Part shown: positions 1,949-15,933 of the stretch, in pieces
Numbering within the stretch: position 1 is the stretch's first letter
Layout: every line of letters starts with the position of its first letter
Translations under genes and position numbers: made by a program
DNA from: a virus
Direction: 5' to 3' (one strand)
Length of the DNA: 64,000 bases
IMG/VR virus record: IMGVR_UViG_3300008113_000031
Location: 1 to 64,000 of that record
The notes under the pieces: model-generated
Database searches by the model: none
What the model saw: only the letters and a program-made list of their open reading frames with translations
Told to the model about the DNA's origin: nothing

Positions 1949-2839
1949 ATGGCAAATACAATTAGAATTAAAAGAAGAGCTGGAACAGGTGCTGCCGGTG
2001 CCCCATCTTCGTTAAAGAACGCAGAGTTAGCATACAATGAAGCTGATGATATTCTTTACTATGGTAAAGGTTCAGATGGTAGTGGTGATGCAACATCTAT
2101 ACCTGCAATCGCCGGCGCAGGAGCATATTTAACCCTAGGTACTACTCAAACTGTAACTGGTAACAAAACATTTTCTGGAACAGTATCAGTTGCAACACCT
2201 TCTTCGAATGCGCATGCCGCTACAAAGCTTTATGTAGACACAGCGGTTTCTGGAGTAACTCCAAGTGGAACCTCAAATCAAATTACGGTAACAAGTGGTG
2301 TAATAGCTTTGGCTAGTAGTGTCACAACTCCTGGAGACTTGACTGTCACAGGAAACTTAACAGTTAATGGCACCACTACAACGGTTAACTCTACAACTGT
2401 TTCTATTGATGATAAGAATATAGAACTAGCAAGTACAGCATCCCCAAGTGATGCTGGCGCAGACGGTGCTGGAATAACGGTTAAAGGAACAACAGATAAA
2501 ACATTCAATTGGGTTGATGCAACTGACGCATGGACTTCATCAGAGCATTTAAATCTTTTAACCGGAAAAGCCTTTTACATAAATGGAACATCTGTCTTAA
2601 ACTCTACAACACTTGGTTCCAATATAACAAGCTCTAGCCTTACTTCAGTAGGGACAATTTCAACAGGAACATGGCAGGGTACAGCTATAGGCCTTGCGTA
2701 CGGAGGCACTGGAGCTACAACGGCATCAGGAGCTAGAACGGCACTAGAGCTTGGATCAATTGCTACACAAAACGCTAATAACGTTAATATAACAGGTGGT
2801 ACAATAGACGGTATATCTATTGATGGCGGAACTTTCTAA
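1949..2839 (+). CDS. tail fibre protein with Mtd-like N-terminal domain
   Basis: 296 aa. Residues 1-45 (IRIKRR.GTG...P.SLKNAELAYNEADDILYYGKG) match the N-terminal domain of major-tropism-determinant-type phage fibres. The middle carries the fibre motif GNLTVNGTTTTVNSTTVSID followed by DDKNIELA, common in cyanophage-type fibres. The C-terminus has GGTGATTASGARTAL and a short G-G-T-I-D-G-I-S-I-D-G-G-T-F end. Low complexity, rich in T/S/G. GGAGG at 1931-1935 inside the upstream gene may serve as its ribosome site. It probably binds host receptors or forms a fibre shaft; no chaperone domain is visible. Confidence 0.75.
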   Translation: MANTIRIKRRAGTGAAGAPSSLKNAELAYNEADDILYYGKGSDGSGDATSIPAIAGAGAYLTLGTTQTVTGNKTFSGTVSVATPSSNAHAATKLYVDTAVSGVTPSGTSNQITVTSGVIALASSVTTPGDLTVTGNLTVNGTTTTVNSTTVSIDDKNIELASTASPSDAGADGAGITVKGTTDKTFNWVDATDAWTSSEHLNLLTGKAFYINGTSVLNSTTLGSNITSSSLTSVGTISTGTWQGTAIGLAYGGTGATTASGARTALELGSIATQNANNVNITGGTIDGISIDGGTF

Positions 2840-2862
2840 AACAATAAATTTACGGGGCTTAA

Positions 2863-3087
2863 ATGGCTAATACTATTAAGATTAAAAGAAGTGGTACAGC
2901 CACTCAAGTTCCTGCAGCTTTGGAATATGGCGAATTAGCAATAAACTACGCTGATGGTAAATTGTTTTATAAGAATAGTTCTGATCAAATAGTAGAACTT
3001 TCTTCCGGTTCTGGTTCAGTTTCAACTACTGGTATCTCAGAAGATATAAGAGACGTAAAAATAATGCTTTATATGGAGGTCATTTAA
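2863..3087 (+). CDS. short Mtd-N-like fibre protein
   Basis: 74 aa. Residues 1-40 (NTIKIKRSGTATQVPAALEYGELAINYADGKLFYKNS) repeat the N-terminal module of the gene just upstream, without a shaft or tip. It ends with a charged helix and a hydrophobic MLYMEVI tail. The GGAGGT inside its last codons (about 3075) serves the next gene. Probably a duplicated and shortened fibre head domain acting as attachment adaptor. Confidence 0.6.
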   Translation: MANTIKIKRSGTATQVPAALEYGELAINYADGKLFYKNSSDQIVELSSGSGSVSTTGISEDIRDVKIMLYMEVI

Positions 3088-3088
3088 A

Positions 3089-3442
3089 ATGGCAATTAAT
3101 CAAAAACGCTTGGCTGGCCCAGCACAGCTTGGTACAACAAGCGTCGCTTATTATACTGTACCAGCTGCAACAACTACAATTGTTAAACAAGTTGTAATAA
3201 CTAATACAACTGCATCAGCAAAAACTGTTACAGTTCGCCTAGTTCCCTCTGGAGCTAGCGAAGGAGCTACTCCTAATTCGCTAGATATTATTAGCGCAAT
3301 GACATTATCGGCAAATGAAACAATGGCCTTTAATTGCTCAATGGTTATGGTCTATACTGGTGGAGCTGGCGATCAACTAAAGGCACTAGCTAGTGCAAGT
3401 GGATCTGTTAATATTTCTGTATTTGGAATAGAAGAGGCCTAA
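3089..3442 (+). CDS. small beta-sandwich virion protein
   Basis: 117 aa. The pattern A-x-L-G-T-T-S-V-A-Y-Y-T-V-P-A..T.T-I-V-K-Q-V-V-I-T-N-T..A.T-V-T-V-R-L-V-P is a known small phage protein type with a jelly-roll-like fold, often encoded among fibre or collar genes. Good ribosome site GGAGGT overlapping the previous stop. No enzyme motif, signal peptide or membrane segment. Likely fibre or decoration protein. Confidence 0.55.
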   Translation: MAINQKRLAGPAQLGTTSVAYYTVPAATTTIVKQVVITNTTASAKTVTVRLVPSGASEGATPNSLDIISAMTLSANETMAFNCSMVMVYTGGAGDQLKALASASGSVNISVFGIEEA

Positions 3443-3447
3443 TAACT

Positions 3448-4159
3448 ATGGCAGGAATGGTTAGGTATGGAGCGCCTAGCGCAATGGCATCTTTTATAGA
3501 TGCCCCTGATCCAATATTTGGAACGGGAACAGATGGAGATGCTACCTTAGATGGTAGCTCAACCGTTCTTGGAATGACTCCTTCTTCTAGTGTTTATTCA
3601 ATGACATCTGATCTATATTTTAATAATCTTACAATAAATGAAGGTGTTAGACTTGCTCCCAATGGATATAGAATATTTGTTAAAAATATTTTAACTTTAA
3701 ATAATAACTCTATTATAGGTTTTACAACTGGTTATTCAACAGCTGGTTCTATAGCACAGCGGAGGAGCTGCTTCAACAGCCGTAACCCATAGTCTTGGCG
3801 GCTCTGCAACTGGTTTTTCTGCCACCGCTCCAGTCGCTGCATTAGGTGGTTCAAAATACTATCAAATTCCTCATCAAGCTATAAGGGGATGGGCAGTAAG
3901 TGCATCTAGTACCACTCCAACTTTTTTAAGAGGCGGTGCAGGCGGAGCAGGGCAAGCTGGTGGTGGTGTTATAATTCTATCTGCAAGATATTTAACTGGT
4001 CCAAGTTCTGGCACTGCTTATATTCAGGCTCCAGGAACAGCACCAGCTGGCGGAGGGGTTATTCTAATAGTTTCATCTCATTCAGCCCTGCCAGTTTCTA
4101 TATCAACAAATGTTACTGGGCAAAACGCCGGAACAGTAAATTATATGCAGTTGGTCTAA
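3448..4159 (+). CDS. glycine-rich fibre protein, made through a +1 frameshift at CGG-A (3760)
   Basis: The first 104 codons run in one frame to an in-frame CGG at 3760-3762, then reach TAG at 3790. Skipping one base continues the protein (GGAAST..., several G-G-A/G-G-G-V-I-I segments, last residues MQLV) to TAA at 4157-4159, 236 aa in all. Residues 1-95 are paralogous to the next gene: MAG start, Y/L-G-T-DG head, SDLYFNNLTI versus SDMYYNDLEV, then N-G-Y-R-I-F-V-K-N-I-L-T-L-N. The Gly-rich half with V-I-I-L-S and V-I-L-I-V-S strands is like phage Gly-rich receptor-binding fibres. Without the shift all of the Gly-rich half is lost. The join occurs inside matching low-complexity sequence, so both halves clearly belong together. 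Confidence 0.75.
3760..3763 (+). other. +1 frameshift site 1 (CAG CGG A to GGA GGA)
   Basis: The zero-frame codon is CGG after CAG; dropping the C gives GGA GGA GCT GCT in the frame that stays open to 4159. The zero-frame stop is at 3790-3792. Confidence 0.8.
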
Positions 4160-4161
4160 TT

Positions 4162-5715
4162 ATGGCTGGTATAGAGAGAGTAGGTCAGCAAAGAGTTCAA
4201 AGAGCTGGCAATGATTCTATATATGGATCCGGACTAGATGGTAGCGGATATGTTAACTCTGCAATTACACTTACTAGCGATATGTATTATAATGACTTAG
4301 AGGTTACCTCTAGTGGAATTATATATACTAACGGTTTTAAAATATTTGTTAAAGGAACATTAACTCTCAATGGATATATTGGAGTTGGTTCAGTTTCTTC
4401 CGGAACAGTTGCAGAGTCTGGTTCAAATATTTCAGACGGGACAATTGCTGGACAAGCAAGTTCAACTATTTCTTACAGATTAGGTGGACAAGGTGGCGGT
4501 GGCTCTAATCCAAATGTGTCAACTCTACCTAGTTATTTATATAAAAATTTAAACAACCTTTTAGGTGGAAGTTATATTGATCCAGCAAACACTGGCGGAG
4601 TAAAGGTTACTGGAGGCTCTGCTGGAACAACTGGAACGACAGGCACAACTACTCCCGCCCCAGCTACATGGCCAAATAAAGCAGGTAAAGCAGGTTCTAA
4701 CGGCGGATATGCACCAAGTGCTACTACAGTAAATGCTCCTGGTGGTAAAGGTAATCCTGCAGCTGACGGTGGTGCAAACTCTGGTCCAGCACCTGGTGGC
4801 GCTGGTGGTTCTGGTGGTGTAGGAGGAGCAGTTGTGGCAGTTTTTGCAAAAACAATTGTTGGATCGGGTAAACTTTTTTCATTAGGAAGATCAGGAGCAG
4901 CAGGCTCAGTTGGAACAACAATTCCAGCTGGAACACCAGGTGCAAACGGAGCAGCTGCCCCAAATAGGACCGACCATCACCACGTTGCGCCTGGCCACAG
5001 TCATGCCCCGCATACAAGAAATCATGATCATCACAACCATACAACAAAACATTCTGACCGTCATGGGCATAAAGTCGCTCCACATGGTGACTTTAAGGGA
5101 CATCACTATGAAGGTCCTCACTGGCACCATGGTGGCCACTATCACCACCCACATAATGACGGCCCTCATGGCGGAATACATCACTGGGATGGGCACTATT
5201 GGCACGCTTGGAAACCTCATGAATCCTTGGGTCACTGGACTCATTATCCTCCACATGGCCACCAAAAGCCAAATGGACATCATAACTGGTACGAGCCATC
5301 TGGAAATGCTCATCATCATGAAAGAATTTATCACGGCCATGCTGGCGGTCATGATGGTCACACTCATGCAGGATTTTCAGAGCCAGGCCACACGCACACT
5401 CATGCTGGTTCTCATACCACCAGTTCTCCTAGGTATCATCATCATAATCATTCCGTCTCACACCCAAACCCAGATGCGTCAGCGCATTATGCAGGTGGTG
5501 CAGGAGGCGTAAATGATGCCTCTCATGGAGTTGGAGCTCCAGCTATTACTGGGGGAACAGGAAAAAAAGGTGGAGCTGGTGGTGGTGGAGCTATTGTTAT
5601 AGTTTGTGATACTATTAGTAATTCAATAGCATTTGATACTAGAGCTGGTTTAACAGCAGATGCAGATAACTTTGCTGCATCTTCTGGTTCTTCGTATATA
5701 ATATACAATATCTAA
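4162..5715 (+). CDS. glycine-rich fibre protein with long histidine-rich insertion
   Basis: 517 aa. The N-terminal ~90 residues are paralogous to the preceding gene. Residues ~100-265 are Gly/Ala/Pro-rich (GGQGGGGSN, GGAGGSGGVGGAVVAVF) like Gly-rich phage adhesins. Residues ~270-442 are extraordinarily His-rich with HxH, HH and GHxH groups mixed with Trp, Tyr, Gly and Pro. The end returns to G-G-A-G-G-G-G-A-I-V-I-V and a strand ending Y-I-I-Y-N-I. HxH clusters in T4-type fibres bind iron along the trimer axis, so metal-stabilised needle or pH-sensitive binding are reasonable ideas. Both CAT and CAC codons are used, so the segment is not a recent codon-repeat expansion. Starts two bases after the previous stop, without a clear ribosome site. 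Confidence 0.75.
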   Translation: MAGIERVGQQRVQRAGNDSIYGSGLDGSGYVNSAITLTSDMYYNDLEVTSSGIIYTNGFKIFVKGTLTLNGYIGVGSVSSGTVAESGSNISDGTIAGQASSTISYRLGGQGGGGSNPNVSTLPSYLYKNLNNLLGGSYIDPANTGGVKVTGGSAGTTGTTGTTTPAPATWPNKAGKAGSNGGYAPSATTVNAPGGKGNPAADGGANSGPAPGGAGGSGGVGGAVVAVFAKTIVGSGKLFSLGRSGAAGSVGTTIPAGTPGANGAAAPNRTDHHHVAPGHSHAPHTRNHDHHNHTTKHSDRHGHKVAPHGDFKGHHYEGPHWHHGGHYHHPHNDGPHGGIHHWDGHYWHAWKPHESLGHWTHYPPHGHQKPNGHHNWYEPSGNAHHHERIYHGHAGGHDGHTHAGFSEPGHTHTHAGSHTTSSPRYHHHNHSVSHPNPDASAHYAGGAGGVNDASHGVGAPAITGGTGKKGGAGGGGAIVIVCDTISNSIAFDTRAGLTADADNFAASSGSSYIIYNI

Positions 5716-5729
5716 AAAGGAGAAATAAC

Positions 5730-5957
5730 GTGGATTTTGAATTAACCGCACAACAAAAGATAGATACATTAACAGCAACTAAAAAAAATATTAAAACTGA
5801 AATATATAATATTTTAATTAGAGTTGGTATTGATCCAGACACTTTTGATGAAACTGATTTATCAGGCTTTGACCCCGTAATGGTTGGAGAAAAAGAAAGA
5901 GTTCAGTCTCTTATCAATGGACTAACAATGATTGAGGCCAAGTTAGCTGCTCTGTAA
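5730..5957 (+). CDS. small coiled protein, paralogue of 9260-9508
   Basis: 75 aa, GTG start with AAAAAGGAGA seven bases upstream. Two predicted amphipathic helices flank a loop with G-I-D-P-D-T-F-D. The protein at 9260-9508 has the same design (K-I-D-T-L-T... against K-I-E-A-L-Q; GIDPDTFD against GFDPDEFD; ending M-I-E-A-K-L-A-A-L against I-V-E-S-K-I-G-A-I). Function unknown; its TAA overlaps the next ATG. The two copies bracket the oxygenase/halogenase genes. Confidence 0.6.
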   Translation: MDFELTAQQKIDTLTATKKNIKTEIYNILIRVGIDPDTFDETDLSGFDPVMVGEKERVQSLINGLTMIEAKLAAL

Positions 5958-6355
5958 TGAAAAGATTTGTTTGCGTTCCGCAATCGTTAGTATATGATGG
6001 GATGCCAGAAGAAGTTAAAAAGTTATCTGAAGAATCTCAACTTCCAATAAGTGTCTCTGAAGAGTATAGCGATATATTTATAGGATCTTTTCCTGAAACT
6101 TTTTCTATAGAGTCACCTGATTCTATACAAAGCGGTTATATATATTGGTTAGATATCACTGATGAATATAATGCTTTTTCAAAAAATGTATTCATTATTT
6201 GTAAGAGTTTGAGTAATGAATATAAATTTTCTCCAACATTAAGAGAAAAACATATATTAAGATTTCGTTTTAGAATACCTGAAAAAAATAGATATAACTA
6301 TGAAATCTGGAATGATGATACCATGTTATATGAAGGTGAATTTGAGGTTATATGA
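5957..6355 (+). CDS. hypothetical protein in accessory cassette
   Basis: 132 aa, starting in the TAATG overlap with the previous gene and sharing ATGA with the next. Mixed alpha/beta and acidic with many aromatic residues; no signal peptide, no membrane segment, no motif I can name. The operon position directly before the 2OG oxygenase suggests cofunction with it, but the sequence does not show how. Confidence 0.5.
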   Translation: MKRFVCVPQSLVYDGMPEEVKKLSEESQLPISVSEEYSDIFIGSFPETFSIESPDSIQSGYIYWLDITDEYNAFSKNVFIICKSLSNEYKFSPTLREKHILRFRFRIPEKNRYNYEIWNDDTMLYEGEFEVI

Positions 6356-6933
6356 AAGTAGAAAGTCCAGTAAAATGTATCTCAATCTATAGAGATGTTT
6401 TTTCAAAAGATCATGCGGAACATTTCATAAAAAATTTAGAAAAAGAAACTACTTCTGATTGGTCTGAATTGCATTGGGGTTCGTCTAAAATTGGAAACGG
6501 TGTTTCTTCTAAATATAGAACATCTTTAAGTTGCTCATTAATACCATTGATGAGACCATATCCAGAAACCGAATTATCTAAGTATTTTTGGCAAAATATT
6601 TGTTCTCCAATAGAAAAAGTTACAGAAGATTATAGGACTGAATATTTCATCCCTTCTGGAATGCACGCTGCATATCAATTGTTAAAATATTATCCAGAAT
6701 CAGAATATCATGCACATGTAGACCATGCTCCTGATAATAGAAGAGTTTTCAGCATGGTGTCTTGCATCCTTGCTCCAGAAGATGGTGGTGATTTAGAGTT
6801 TCCATTTTTTGATTTATCTATCCCTATGGAGACTGGATCAGTTATATTGTTTCCTTCTAACTTTCCTTACTTGCATATAGCTCATTCTGTTAATTCTGGA
6901 ATTAAGTACAGTTTAGTAACCTGGTATGAATAA
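6352..6933 (+). CDS. 2-oxoglutarate/Fe(II)-dependent oxygenase (prolyl-4-hydroxylase-like)
   Basis: 193 aa. The iron ligands are visible: H122-V-D124 in the YHAHVDHAP segment and a distal His near 175-178 (FPYLHIAHSV), followed by a basic residue ~185 in GIKYSLVTWY that would hold 2-oxoglutarate. The double-stranded beta-helix core strands (RRVFSMVSCIL, GDLEFPFF, GSVILFPS) are in the expected order and the length is normal. Expected to hydroxylate a substrate using O2 and 2-oxoglutarate; the substrate is unknown. Such enzymes are common in large aquatic myoviruses beside fibre genes, where they may modify virion or host proteins. Coupled by ATGA to the gene before it. Confidence 0.8.
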   Translation: MKVESPVKCISIYRDVFSKDHAEHFIKNLEKETTSDWSELHWGSSKIGNGVSSKYRTSLSCSLIPLMRPYPETELSKYFWQNICSPIEKVTEDYRTEYFIPSGMHAAYQLLKYYPESEYHAHVDHAPDNRRVFSMVSCILAPEDGGDLEFPFFDLSIPMETGSVILFPSNFPYLHIAHSVNSGIKYSLVTWYE

Positions 6934-6942
6934 TGGTATAAT
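6934..6942 (+). promoter_or_regulatory. extended -10 promoter-like element before the halogenase
   Basis: TGGTATAAT is a perfect extended -10 (TGnTATAAT) seven bases before the ATG at 6949. No good -35 is seen. If active, the mRNA would be nearly leaderless; the halogenase also lacks a Shine-Dalgarno sequence. AT-rich chance occurrence is possible. Confidence 0.35.
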
Positions 6943-6948
6943 ATATAT

Positions 6949-8463
6949 ATGGATGATAATTTAAATAAATTTAAACCAAAAACCTTTGGAATAATTGGAT
7001 CTGGAACAGCCGGCTTGATAACCGCTCTTCTTCTAAGAAGGGCATTCCCTGCATGCAGTATTACTGTAGTTTCTTCTTCTGAAGTTGGGATTATTGGAGT
7101 TGGAGAAGGTTCAACCGAACATTGGCGTCAGTTCATGGAAGTATGTAATGTTCCTTTACATGAGATGTTGATGGAAACTGCAGCAACCCATAAATATGGG
7201 ATTAGGTATGAGAACTGGACAAATCATACTCCAGACTATTTCCATAGTGTTTCAGGAGTAGATGACATATATTGCTTTGGTCTATTTGGGGCATATATGG
7301 GGATTATGGAAACTGGAAAAACATTAACATCTCAAACATCATCAATTGGTTTAGTAAGAGATAAGATTAGAAGAGAAAACTTACATAATAATACAAATCA
7401 ATATCACTTTGATACTTTTAAACTAAATGAATATTTTATTTCTTTAGCATTTAATAGGAATGTTAGATTTGTTGATGGTTTTGTTGAAAAAGTTCAAAAG
7501 AACGAAGATGGAACCATAAAGTGCGTCCAAACAAAACAGGGTGACGAAATAGAAGCAGACTTTTGGTTTGACGCATCTGGCTTTAAGAGAGTTCTTCTAA
7601 AAGAAGTTGGCAATGTAAATTGGCAATCTTTTAATGATTATTTATTATGCAACACTGCTATTCCATTTCCTACAGAATCTGATCCAAGTGGAAAGATCCA
7701 TGGATATACAAGAGCAAAAGCAGCCTCTTCTGGTTGGATGTGGGAAATACCCACACAGGAAAGAAGAGGAAATGGATACGTTTTTTGTGATAAGTTTATA
7801 TCTATTGAGGAAGCAATAGAAGAAGCAGAAAAGATAAGTGGATATAAACTCCCTAAAGATCCTAGGGTAATCAGTTTTGATGCTGGGTACGTAAAAGAGC
7901 CATGGCAAAAAAATGTTATTGCAGTTGGATTGGCTTCTTCTTTTGTTGAGCCCCTAGAAGCTACTAGTATTGGTTCTACGATTCAGCAAATTCGTCAGGC
8001 GATACCATATATAGCTTCTTATAAATCAAGTCATAAGTTTTCGCAAAAGCATTTTAATGAATCTTTTGAAAAAGTTATGAGAAATATACTAACTATGATT
8101 AGATTACATTATTATAGCGATAGAAGAGATAGTAAATTTTGGCAAGAAATGGCACACATGCCAGTGAACAAGGAACTTCAGGATATTATTGATTTATGGT
8201 CAGAAAGACCTCCGTCAAGAAATGATTTTGACCACTCTAATGGAGAGATGTTTTTAGCTGCTCATATGACACATGTGGGTCAAGGTCAAGGTATCATAAA
8301 TATAGAAGCTTGCACAGATGCTATAAATCATTTTGGAATTAGAGCAGAAGTAGAAAAGCAATTAGATGAGTTTCATAGGGGTAGAAGTAACCATGAACTT
8401 GTCGATCATGCTGAGTCATTAAGAGAATTGTATAACTTAGACCAAGAATGGAATAATCAGTGA
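6949..8463 (+). CDS. flavin-dependent tryptophan-halogenase-like protein
   Basis: 504 aa. The FAD-binding GSGTAGL lies at residues ~15-21 and the GVGEGST segment at ~50. The lysine in ATHKYGIRYENW (about K82) matches the catalytic lysine that carries the chloramine. GWMWEIP at ~262-268 is the diagnostic halogenase WxWxIP motif. VGLASSFVEPLEATSIGS (~325) contains the active-site glutamate region. Length fits the family. It needs reduced FAD from a partner reductase, none of which is visible here. Related halogenases are known from cyanophages (VirX1 type). Halide and organic substrate cannot be predicted. Its stop overlaps the next GTG. Confidence 0.85.
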   Translation: MDDNLNKFKPKTFGIIGSGTAGLITALLLRRAFPACSITVVSSSEVGIIGVGEGSTEHWRQFMEVCNVPLHEMLMETAATHKYGIRYENWTNHTPDYFHSVSGVDDIYCFGLFGAYMGIMETGKTLTSQTSSIGLVRDKIRRENLHNNTNQYHFDTFKLNEYFISLAFNRNVRFVDGFVEKVQKNEDGTIKCVQTKQGDEIEADFWFDASGFKRVLLKEVGNVNWQSFNDYLLCNTAIPFPTESDPSGKIHGYTRAKAASSGWMWEIPTQERRGNGYVFCDKFISIEEAIEEAEKISGYKLPKDPRVISFDAGYVKEPWQKNVIAVGLASSFVEPLEATSIGSTIQQIRQAIPYIASYKSSHKFSQKHFNESFEKVMRNILTMIRLHYYSDRRDSKFWQEMAHMPVNKELQDIIDLWSERPPSRNDFDHSNGEMFLAAHMTHVGQGQGIINIEACTDAINHFGIRAEVEKQLDEFHRGRSNHELVDHAESLRELYNLDQEWNNQ

Positions 8464-14646: not shown

Positions 14647-15933
14647 ATGGCTCTACCTGGCGTTAAAACAATCGTAAAAGATCGCTTTTATAGCATCTCA
14701 AGACAGGATTCTCCTGTCGGTCCAAGAATCTGTGTAATCGGCATGCGTAGCACCGCCGATGGCACTGGCAACGTAGCTGACTTAGACGTCGTTCAAGTTA
14801 CAAAAGAATCTGACGTTATCACCGCTTTTGGTGAGGGTTCACAGCTGCACAAAGCTTATAAGGAATTAGTTGCTGCTGGTGCAGATAGAATCTTTATGGT
14901 TCCTCTCCCAAGCAATACAACATTTAATCATACCAATGGTACAGCTACTTCTGGTGGCACAGACGTCTTTGATGCAGCATTCGCTGCAGCTGAAGTCGCC
15001 CTTCCAGACATCATTGTTCCTTGGGGTAGAGGTGGCACCACTTCAGACTGGCAAGATCCAGCAACTCCTGGTGACGACGTTGAGTATGGTTTCCATGCTG
15101 ACAACACTACAACAGTAGCAAACAACTGGGCATACAAAGTAGCCAACAAGGTTAAGGCAATCAGCGAAAACAGCAATCCATGTGTTGCCGTAATGGGAAT
15201 TAGACCATGGATTGGCACTGGTGCAACTCCTGCAACCGCAGAGACAATGACACCAGCTAATGTTTCAACACACCTTAGCCTTACTCGCCTTCCAGACAAG
15301 AATGCAACTTCTGGTTCATCATATACCTGGGGCGGAATTGGTAGATACGTTATAATCATTGCAGCAGAGGTCAAGCCAGTCAATTACAGCTCAGAAAACT
15401 ACGCAGACTTTGGTTACGCAAATGGCGCAACAACTTTTGCAGCTTCTTTGAGCAGAATGGCTTCTTACGTAAGTCCAGTCAACAAGACAGTCTTTAACGT
15501 AACAAGACTGCGCTACAATCCAACTAGAACACAACTTTCTAACGACCAAGCAACTGGTGTTACCGACAAGGGTGTAAACGCAATTGTCCTTAACTTTAAT
15601 AAGATTCCAGTATATGCAGAAGGCATGACATTTGCTCCCGCTACCTCAGACTACAACAGAATTTCAACTTCAAGAATTATCAACGAAGCTGCTCTTGTTG
15701 TCCGTCAGGTTTGTCAGAAGTTTGTTGGTGAGCCTTCAACAATGCAAGTCCGCAACTCGATGGAAACAGCTATTACTTCGGGTCTACGCGGGATGCAACA
15801 GCTTGGCGCTCTTCTTGACAGTGACTTCACCGTAAGTTACATTCCAAGCGAAAACAAAGCCCTAGTTGACCTAGTGCTAACACCAGCTTTTGAACTTAAG
15901 TCAATTGAAGTTCAAATAGCAGTTAACCTTTAA
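14647..15933 (+). CDS. contractile tail sheath protein
   Basis: 428 aa. The start ALPGVKTIVKDRFYS, a Rossmann-like segment with RICVIGMRSTA and S-Q-L-H-K-A-Y-K-E-L-V-A-A-G-A-D-R-I-F-M-V, and a C-terminal domain ending F-E-L-K-S-I-E-V-Q-I-A-V are typical of sheath subunits. It surrounds the tube and contracts to drive it into the host. Codon use is C-ending and GC-richer than the neighbours, as for the capsid and tube, consistent with very high expression. The tube gene follows after a 31-base gap with its own AGGAGGG. Confidence 0.85.
   Translation: MALPGVKTIVKDRFYSISRQDSPVGPRICVIGMRSTADGTGNVADLDVVQVTKESDVITAFGEGSQLHKAYKELVAAGADRIFMVPLPSNTTFNHTNGTATSGGTDVFDAAFAAAEVALPDIIVPWGRGGTTSDWQDPATPGDDVEYGFHADNTTTVANNWAYKVANKVKAISENSNPCVAVMGIRPWIGTGATPATAETMTPANVSTHLSLTRLPDKNATSGSSYTWGGIGRYVIIIAAEVKPVNYSSENYADFGYANGATTFAASLSRMASYVSPVNKTVFNVTRLRYNPTRTQLSNDQATGVTDKGVNAIVLNFNKIPVYAEGMTFAPATSDYNRISTSRIINEAALVVRQVCQKFVGEPSTMQVRNSMETAITSGLRGMQQLGALLDSDFTVSYIPSENKALVDLVLTPAFELKSIEVQIAVNL

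Follow-up and report, generated by a model that had tools for sequence, protein, structure and literature searches.

A histidine-rich segment as the probable two-armed tip of a glycine-rich tail adhesin candidate from an uncultivated phage

What is a long histidine-rich segment doing inside a glycine-rich, fiber-like phage protein? Low-complexity His-rich segments are commonly dismissed as disordered metal binders, and the locus described here raises the question whether that description fits. The window, i.e. the whole stretch of DNA that was analyzed, comprises 64 kb of a 93.8-kb viral record. It contains tail-sheath and long tail genes, and the protein encoded at 14647 shares only 26–33% identity with phage tail sheaths, which indicates a contractile-tailed phage that is remote from cultured phages. 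The protein carrying the segment is probably a tail adhesin, judging from its setting among tail genes and from its resemblance to the adhesins S16 gp38 and Pam3 gp24. Its parts and its neighbors are listed in Table 1.

Table 1. Coordinates of the adhesin candidate, its parts and the adjacent genes in the window
Feature	Position (nt)	Strand	Basis
Upstream scaffold paralogue lacking the His tip	3448..4159	+	Two frames, +1 shift at ~3760
Glycine-rich tail adhesin candidate with His-rich tip	4162..5715	+	Single 517-aa ORF; relatives found; no Pfam or PHROGs match
N-terminal scaffold, rich in beta-strands, with glycine-rich motifs	4162..4962	+	Conserved in all relatives; AlphaFold
N-arm of the tip, aa 268-296, NRTDHHHVAPGHSHAPHTRNHDHHNHTTK	4963..5049	+	Length coupled to C-arm; V-A-P unit
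His/Trp/Tyr-rich, putatively distal core, aa 297-425, including HWHHGGHYHHPHNDGPHGG and HHWDGHYWHAW	5050..5436	+	Alignments; low AlphaFold confidence
C-arm of the tip, aa 426-444, HHHNHSVSHPNPDASAHYA	5437..5493	+	Length coupled to N-arm; N-P-D unit
C-terminal scaffold with the final glycine-rich motifs and the closing strands	5494..5712	+	Conserved; AlphaFold
75-aa protein just downstream of the adhesin candidate	5730..5957	+	Conserved in relatives; position

The His-rich segment occupies residues 272–444 (nt 4975–5493). It holds 53 His among 173 residues (31%), together with Trp, Tyr, Pro and Gly. The original prediction had placed it at 4972–5490, correct within one codon, and had rightly described it as embedded in a glycine-rich fiber-like protein. 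In the 16 other ORFs of the window, His makes up 1.2% of 13,394 residues (binomial tail for the segment ~1e-58). The densest 40 residues of the segment contain 15 His, against at most eight in any other window frame of at least 100 codons. The claimed absence of the segment from the upstream paralogue was likewise borne out, as this protein has 3 His in 236 aa when its +1 frameshift is read through. The density is also, as predicted, well above that of the phage T4 needle (11% in gp37 881–1010). The emphasis placed on HxH did not hold: 16 lag-2 His pairs were observed in the segment and 15.9 are expected, so that HxH periodicity was rejected as an organizing feature.

The segment is protein-coding and under strong purifying selection. 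Comparisons of the window with relatives at 78–86% protein identity gave dN/dS values of 0.035 (L004), 0.079 (L005) and 0.065 (L008) in the segment and ~0.09–0.18 in the gene on either side of it; as dS in the segment is near saturation, these values are rough figures whose direction is nevertheless clear. His and Trp positions are each retained at 0.88 among 13 relatives.

A search retrieved 26 relatives from 2.9 million viral contigs. An alignment search yielded 256, of which 80 were kept, and two further searches brought in remote members. About 50 related proteins, all from uncultivated viral contigs, have a His-rich segment at the equivalent site. It lies at the same point in practically all complete close relatives and measures ~55–240 aa, the variation in insert length that the original prediction had proposed to look for. 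No homologue was found among 50,697 phage records with three queries, and sequence and profile searches of the PDB gave no relevant match. In remote relatives, the scaffold is retained and the tip is of another composition: Tyr/Asn/Ser/Gly repeats with a short His-alternating core in L150–L182, Phe/Asn/Pro/Gln in L155 and Arg/Glu/Asn in L156. Tips of such different chemistry on the same scaffold imply that His is one solution rather than the defining function. A limitation of recombination to the tip was considered and rejected; L012 and L018 differ mainly in the tip, but L005 and L008 differ mainly in the scaffold, and exchange or fast change is thus not confined to the tip.

The organization of the tip becomes apparent from the lengths of its two arms. 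The N-arm was defined as the stretch from the scaffold motif AAP to a conserved HSD, and the C-arm as the stretch from a conserved Tyr/Trp to the scaffold GGAGG, both measured on alignment columns. Over 31 relatives, the two lengths are almost perfectly correlated (r=0.98; permutation p=0.0014 on 8 distinct length pairs), whereas the remaining tip segments do not track them. The N/C pairs are 25/16, 27/17, 27/18, 29/19, 38/28 and 44/35, with 27/20 and 43/38 being less exact. The HSATIHAP clade has pairs of 17/12, 30/25 and 32/27, with a constant difference of 5, and the Tyr/Asn-type relatives have 52/50, 54/52 and 55/53. Matching insertions and deletions occur at a similar distance from the scaffold on both arms, which fits an antiparallel pairing.

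A register between the arms could also be identified at the level of single residues. In His-type tips, a (V/I)(A/P)P unit faces (N/Q)P(D/N/A/P/S/Q) on the opposite arm when the arms are aligned antiparallel with an offset of +2. At this offset, 27 unit pairs are complementary and 5 are alike (label permutation p=5e-5); because the unit patterns were picked after viewing the sequences and the relatives are not independent, this p-value and the following ones are optimistic and serve as guides only. The window obeys the rule, its V-A-P unit (V at +7) lying opposite N-P-D (N at −9). Both orientations of the VAP/NPD units between the arms occur. Exceptions to the rule exist (arms of L049, L081 and L011), and like pairs are present in L050, L060, L066 and L073.

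Relatives of the Tyr/Asn type follow a different code. Here, YSY lies opposite NYG, with units of the form YG(S/A/T) matched residue for residue on the other arm, and irregular unit spacings of 4, 6, 7 and 9 are mirrored unit by unit. Eight proteins give 41 exact coincidences, compared to 5.4 under random placement, and their own arms score 0.83 versus 0.32 when combined with the arms of other proteins (p=0.00035). A second Tyr/Asn group, of three proteins only, displays the same pattern at a non-significant level (own versus other, p=0.33). In L166 the units have swapped arms nearly throughout, and in L150 only beside the core; the pairing is kept in both.

Such matching could in principle be produced by repeat slippage combined with gene conversion, with no structural need. 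Some clades indeed carry identical units on both arms (HSATIHAP, 1+1 or 2+2; HPAGHNPH, 4+4), and these equal units are explicable by slippage. The most informative cases, however, have different units on each arm (VAP/NPD, YSY/NYG), which slippage cannot coordinate. Moreover, no inverted repeats were found in the DNA and the RNA fold is ordinary, which argues that the arm match is not a feature of the nucleic acid. We therefore give this explanation hardly any credence.

The same data bear on the classical view, in which the segment would be an unstructured His-rich sponge for metal or a linker that responds to pH. Its low-complexity composition, the low AlphaFold confidence and the maintenance of His as a composition across diverged relatives would all be compatible with this view. 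It is nevertheless very unlikely, considering the coupled arm lengths, the conservation of His and Trp at specific positions and the residue-exact register between the arms. Disorder without a repeat register was part of the outcome that would have spoken against the original prediction; a residue-exact register was found instead.

The protein of the window was modeled by AlphaFold as a monomer with 31 sequences. The glycine-rich part of the scaffold is for the most part predicted with a pLDDT above 90; the values are ~82–95 over aa 151–270, 69–90 over aa 21–90 and 91–93 at aa 441–470, while the tip was left unresolved at ~37–65. The short-tip relative L079, modeled with 13 sequences, reached a pLDDT of 41. 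Foldseek gave no structural match in the PDB, including S16 gp38 (6F45), although this is a weak test for a protein with little regular secondary structure; against BFVD, just collagen-like or unnamed proteins were retrieved, at an uninformative TM of ~0.2. The physical pairing of the arms is therefore read from covariation.

Glycine-rich tail adhesins with a hypervariable tip are already known, and what is uncommon here is the way in which the tip is built. Gp38 of the Salmonella phage S16 has glycine-rich motifs, a beta-strand body and hypervariable distal segments (PMC6851490). Gp24 of Pam3, a freshwater cyanophage with myovirus morphology, combines a glycine-rich domain and a hypervariable distal tip with a dedicated chaperone, gp25 (PMC9608196). 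The adhesin candidate of the window shares with gp38 the glycine-rich motifs on a beta-strand body and the hypervariable, presumably distal, segments, and with gp24 the freshwater myovirus setting and the glycine-rich domain with its hypervariable tip. It has no sequence match to gp38, a protein with short distal loops that is carried by its N-terminus on a gp37 fiber; in the window, one loop would form a stalk and core of 177 residues. Neither a TNF-like domain nor a chaperone match was found for the window proteins, in contrast to the Pam3 system.

It could be proposed that the His-rich strands simply prolong the glycine-rich lattice of such a polyglycine sandwich and end in hypervariable receptor loops. 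The scaffold is modeled with confidence, and its glycine-rich motifs, beta-strands and variable, presumably distal, loops recall S16 gp38 and Pam3 gp24 (PMC6851490, PMC9608196). But no three-residue periodicity is seen, His being depleted at lags 3 and 4 across the family, and the arms also have matched indels of 2. Foldseek did not retrieve gp38 either, though such folds are hard for this program. Overall, a prolonged lattice appears rather improbable.

A parallel in plan is the T4 gp37 needle, which has been solved as a trimer containing seven irons and in which His is essential (PMC6957217). Both proteins would have out-and-back arms around a core, with His motifs in the two of them. In gp37, HxH motifs are located 14 residues apart on both arms beside the core; with its outer spacings unmatched, this is a small positive control. 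The covariation of the window's family likewise points to antiparallel out-and-back arms in register. A true gp37-like needle would be a special case of the two-armed tip proposed here, consisting of three out-and-back chains with six intertwined strands and HxH-bound iron on the axis. The position of the core between two arms, the matched spacing in T4, its irons and essential His, and the motifs HTHYHWH and YHYHYAHSH that flank the core in Tyr/Asn-type relatives are all consistent with it. The HxH content of the window segment does not exceed what its composition predicts, there is no sequence or Foldseek match to the T4 fiber, and the scaffold is of a different kind. The matched units in the window's family are complementary instead of identical, and a trimer with irons would be putative for this family. 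This special case is considered unlikely.

Most likely, the segment consists of an ordered stalk of antiparallel arms that carries a His-rich core at its distal end. It would make up the variable end of a tail adhesin, with a plan like that of the T4 needle in a protein that is no homologue of gp37. That it faces the receptor, with its arms zipped in exact register and a His/Trp/Tyr core at the far end, is in our opinion probable. Both ends of the segment would emerge next to each other from the glycine-rich scaffold, and the two extended arms would pair antiparallel in a zipper-like manner, governed by a small complementary code (V-A-P versus N-P-D in the window). We infer that the register reflects physical strand pairing. 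The core would then be held at the far end, where it could contact the host surface. Tip evolution may proceed through the addition or loss of matched units in both arms and through changes of the core, with the scaffold remaining constant; the code would allow a stepwise matched lengthening of the arms as well as a swap of whole chemistries.

The role of His in the stalk is probably one of packing. A ladder of His-His contacts across the arms is not supported for window-type stalks, since the coincidence of His with His is low at the pairing offset and has no peak. In the window, HHH lies opposite A, D and P; His may pack on these residues of the facing arm. In the HSATIHAP clade, Cys-Cys lies opposite His-His at the same offset, and the units are self-complementary around an Ile-Ile pair. 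A Cys-Cys facing a His-His in short-tip relatives would fit a putative metal site, and we would guess that metal is held by His in the core and in these Cys-Cys variants. Metal loading, pH switching or attachment to metal-rich surfaces, as suggested in the original prediction, would be conceivable functions, the register between the arms being the better-supported point. Short tips with Cys-Cys were observed in L026 (6653–7939), L028 (963–2255), L079, L088 and L099, with a CC arm against an HH arm.

On a broader scale, these proteins may tentatively be regarded as a widespread, undescribed adhesin family with a two-arm zipper tip and the pairing codes VAP/NPD, YSY/NYG, HH/CC and NPHH/NGGHH, in which tips are exchanged or lengthened on one scaffold and the His/Cys variants are stapled by metal; this wider reading is possible rather than probable. 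In a literature search on His-rich, glycine-rich phage fibers, no paper combined all four terms. The prediction of an ordered, register-locked tip from sequence covariation yields a pairing code that can be tested. The retention of the zipper where His is replaced points to a modular principle by which host-binding tips may be constructed and diversified. The relatives also offer structural work a natural collection of peptide arms that match each other, and a family absent from the cultured phages searched could assist in assigning uncultivated aquatic viruses to their hosts.

A few related proteins deviate in other ways. An extra N-terminal domain of ~170 aa (GPAGGVVFITPS...) precedes the scaffold in L023 (5455–7599), L024 (4450–6651), L122 and L124. 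The contig L013 encodes, besides its His-tip adhesin, a separate collar-like fiber protein (2298–3170) with SHTHTLG heptads of the classical HxH type. The sole match in a prokaryote collection with one genome per species, L104, is a 3.2-kb contig of a Phycisphaerae MAG; both paralogues are present on it and no His tip was seen. Phycisphaerae were not retained as host, as a single short MAG contig from a genome scan is too little to name one.

The genes around the adhesin also have some particularities. The 75-aa protein just downstream, which accompanies the adhesin in many relatives, matches nothing in Pfam or PHROGs, known chaperone families included; by its position, it is a candidate assembly chaperone of the adhesin. 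In the upstream paralogue, an additional base at CAG-C-GGAGG shifts the frame. L003, L004, L006, L011, L021 and L112 share this +1 shift, and L044 has it at another place with the same CGGAGGAGC. Past the shift, the +1 frame has a dN/dS of ~0.06–0.19 over 132 codons, and this purifying selection points to programmed +1 frameshifting, with a CGG-AGG/Shine-Dalgarno-like sequence as its site. Close to the adhesin, at 6352–8463, the window encodes a 2OG-Fe(II) oxygenase together with a tryptophan halogenase homologue (Pfam E 8e-100), whose matches among phage records are mostly cyanophages, at less than 60% identity.
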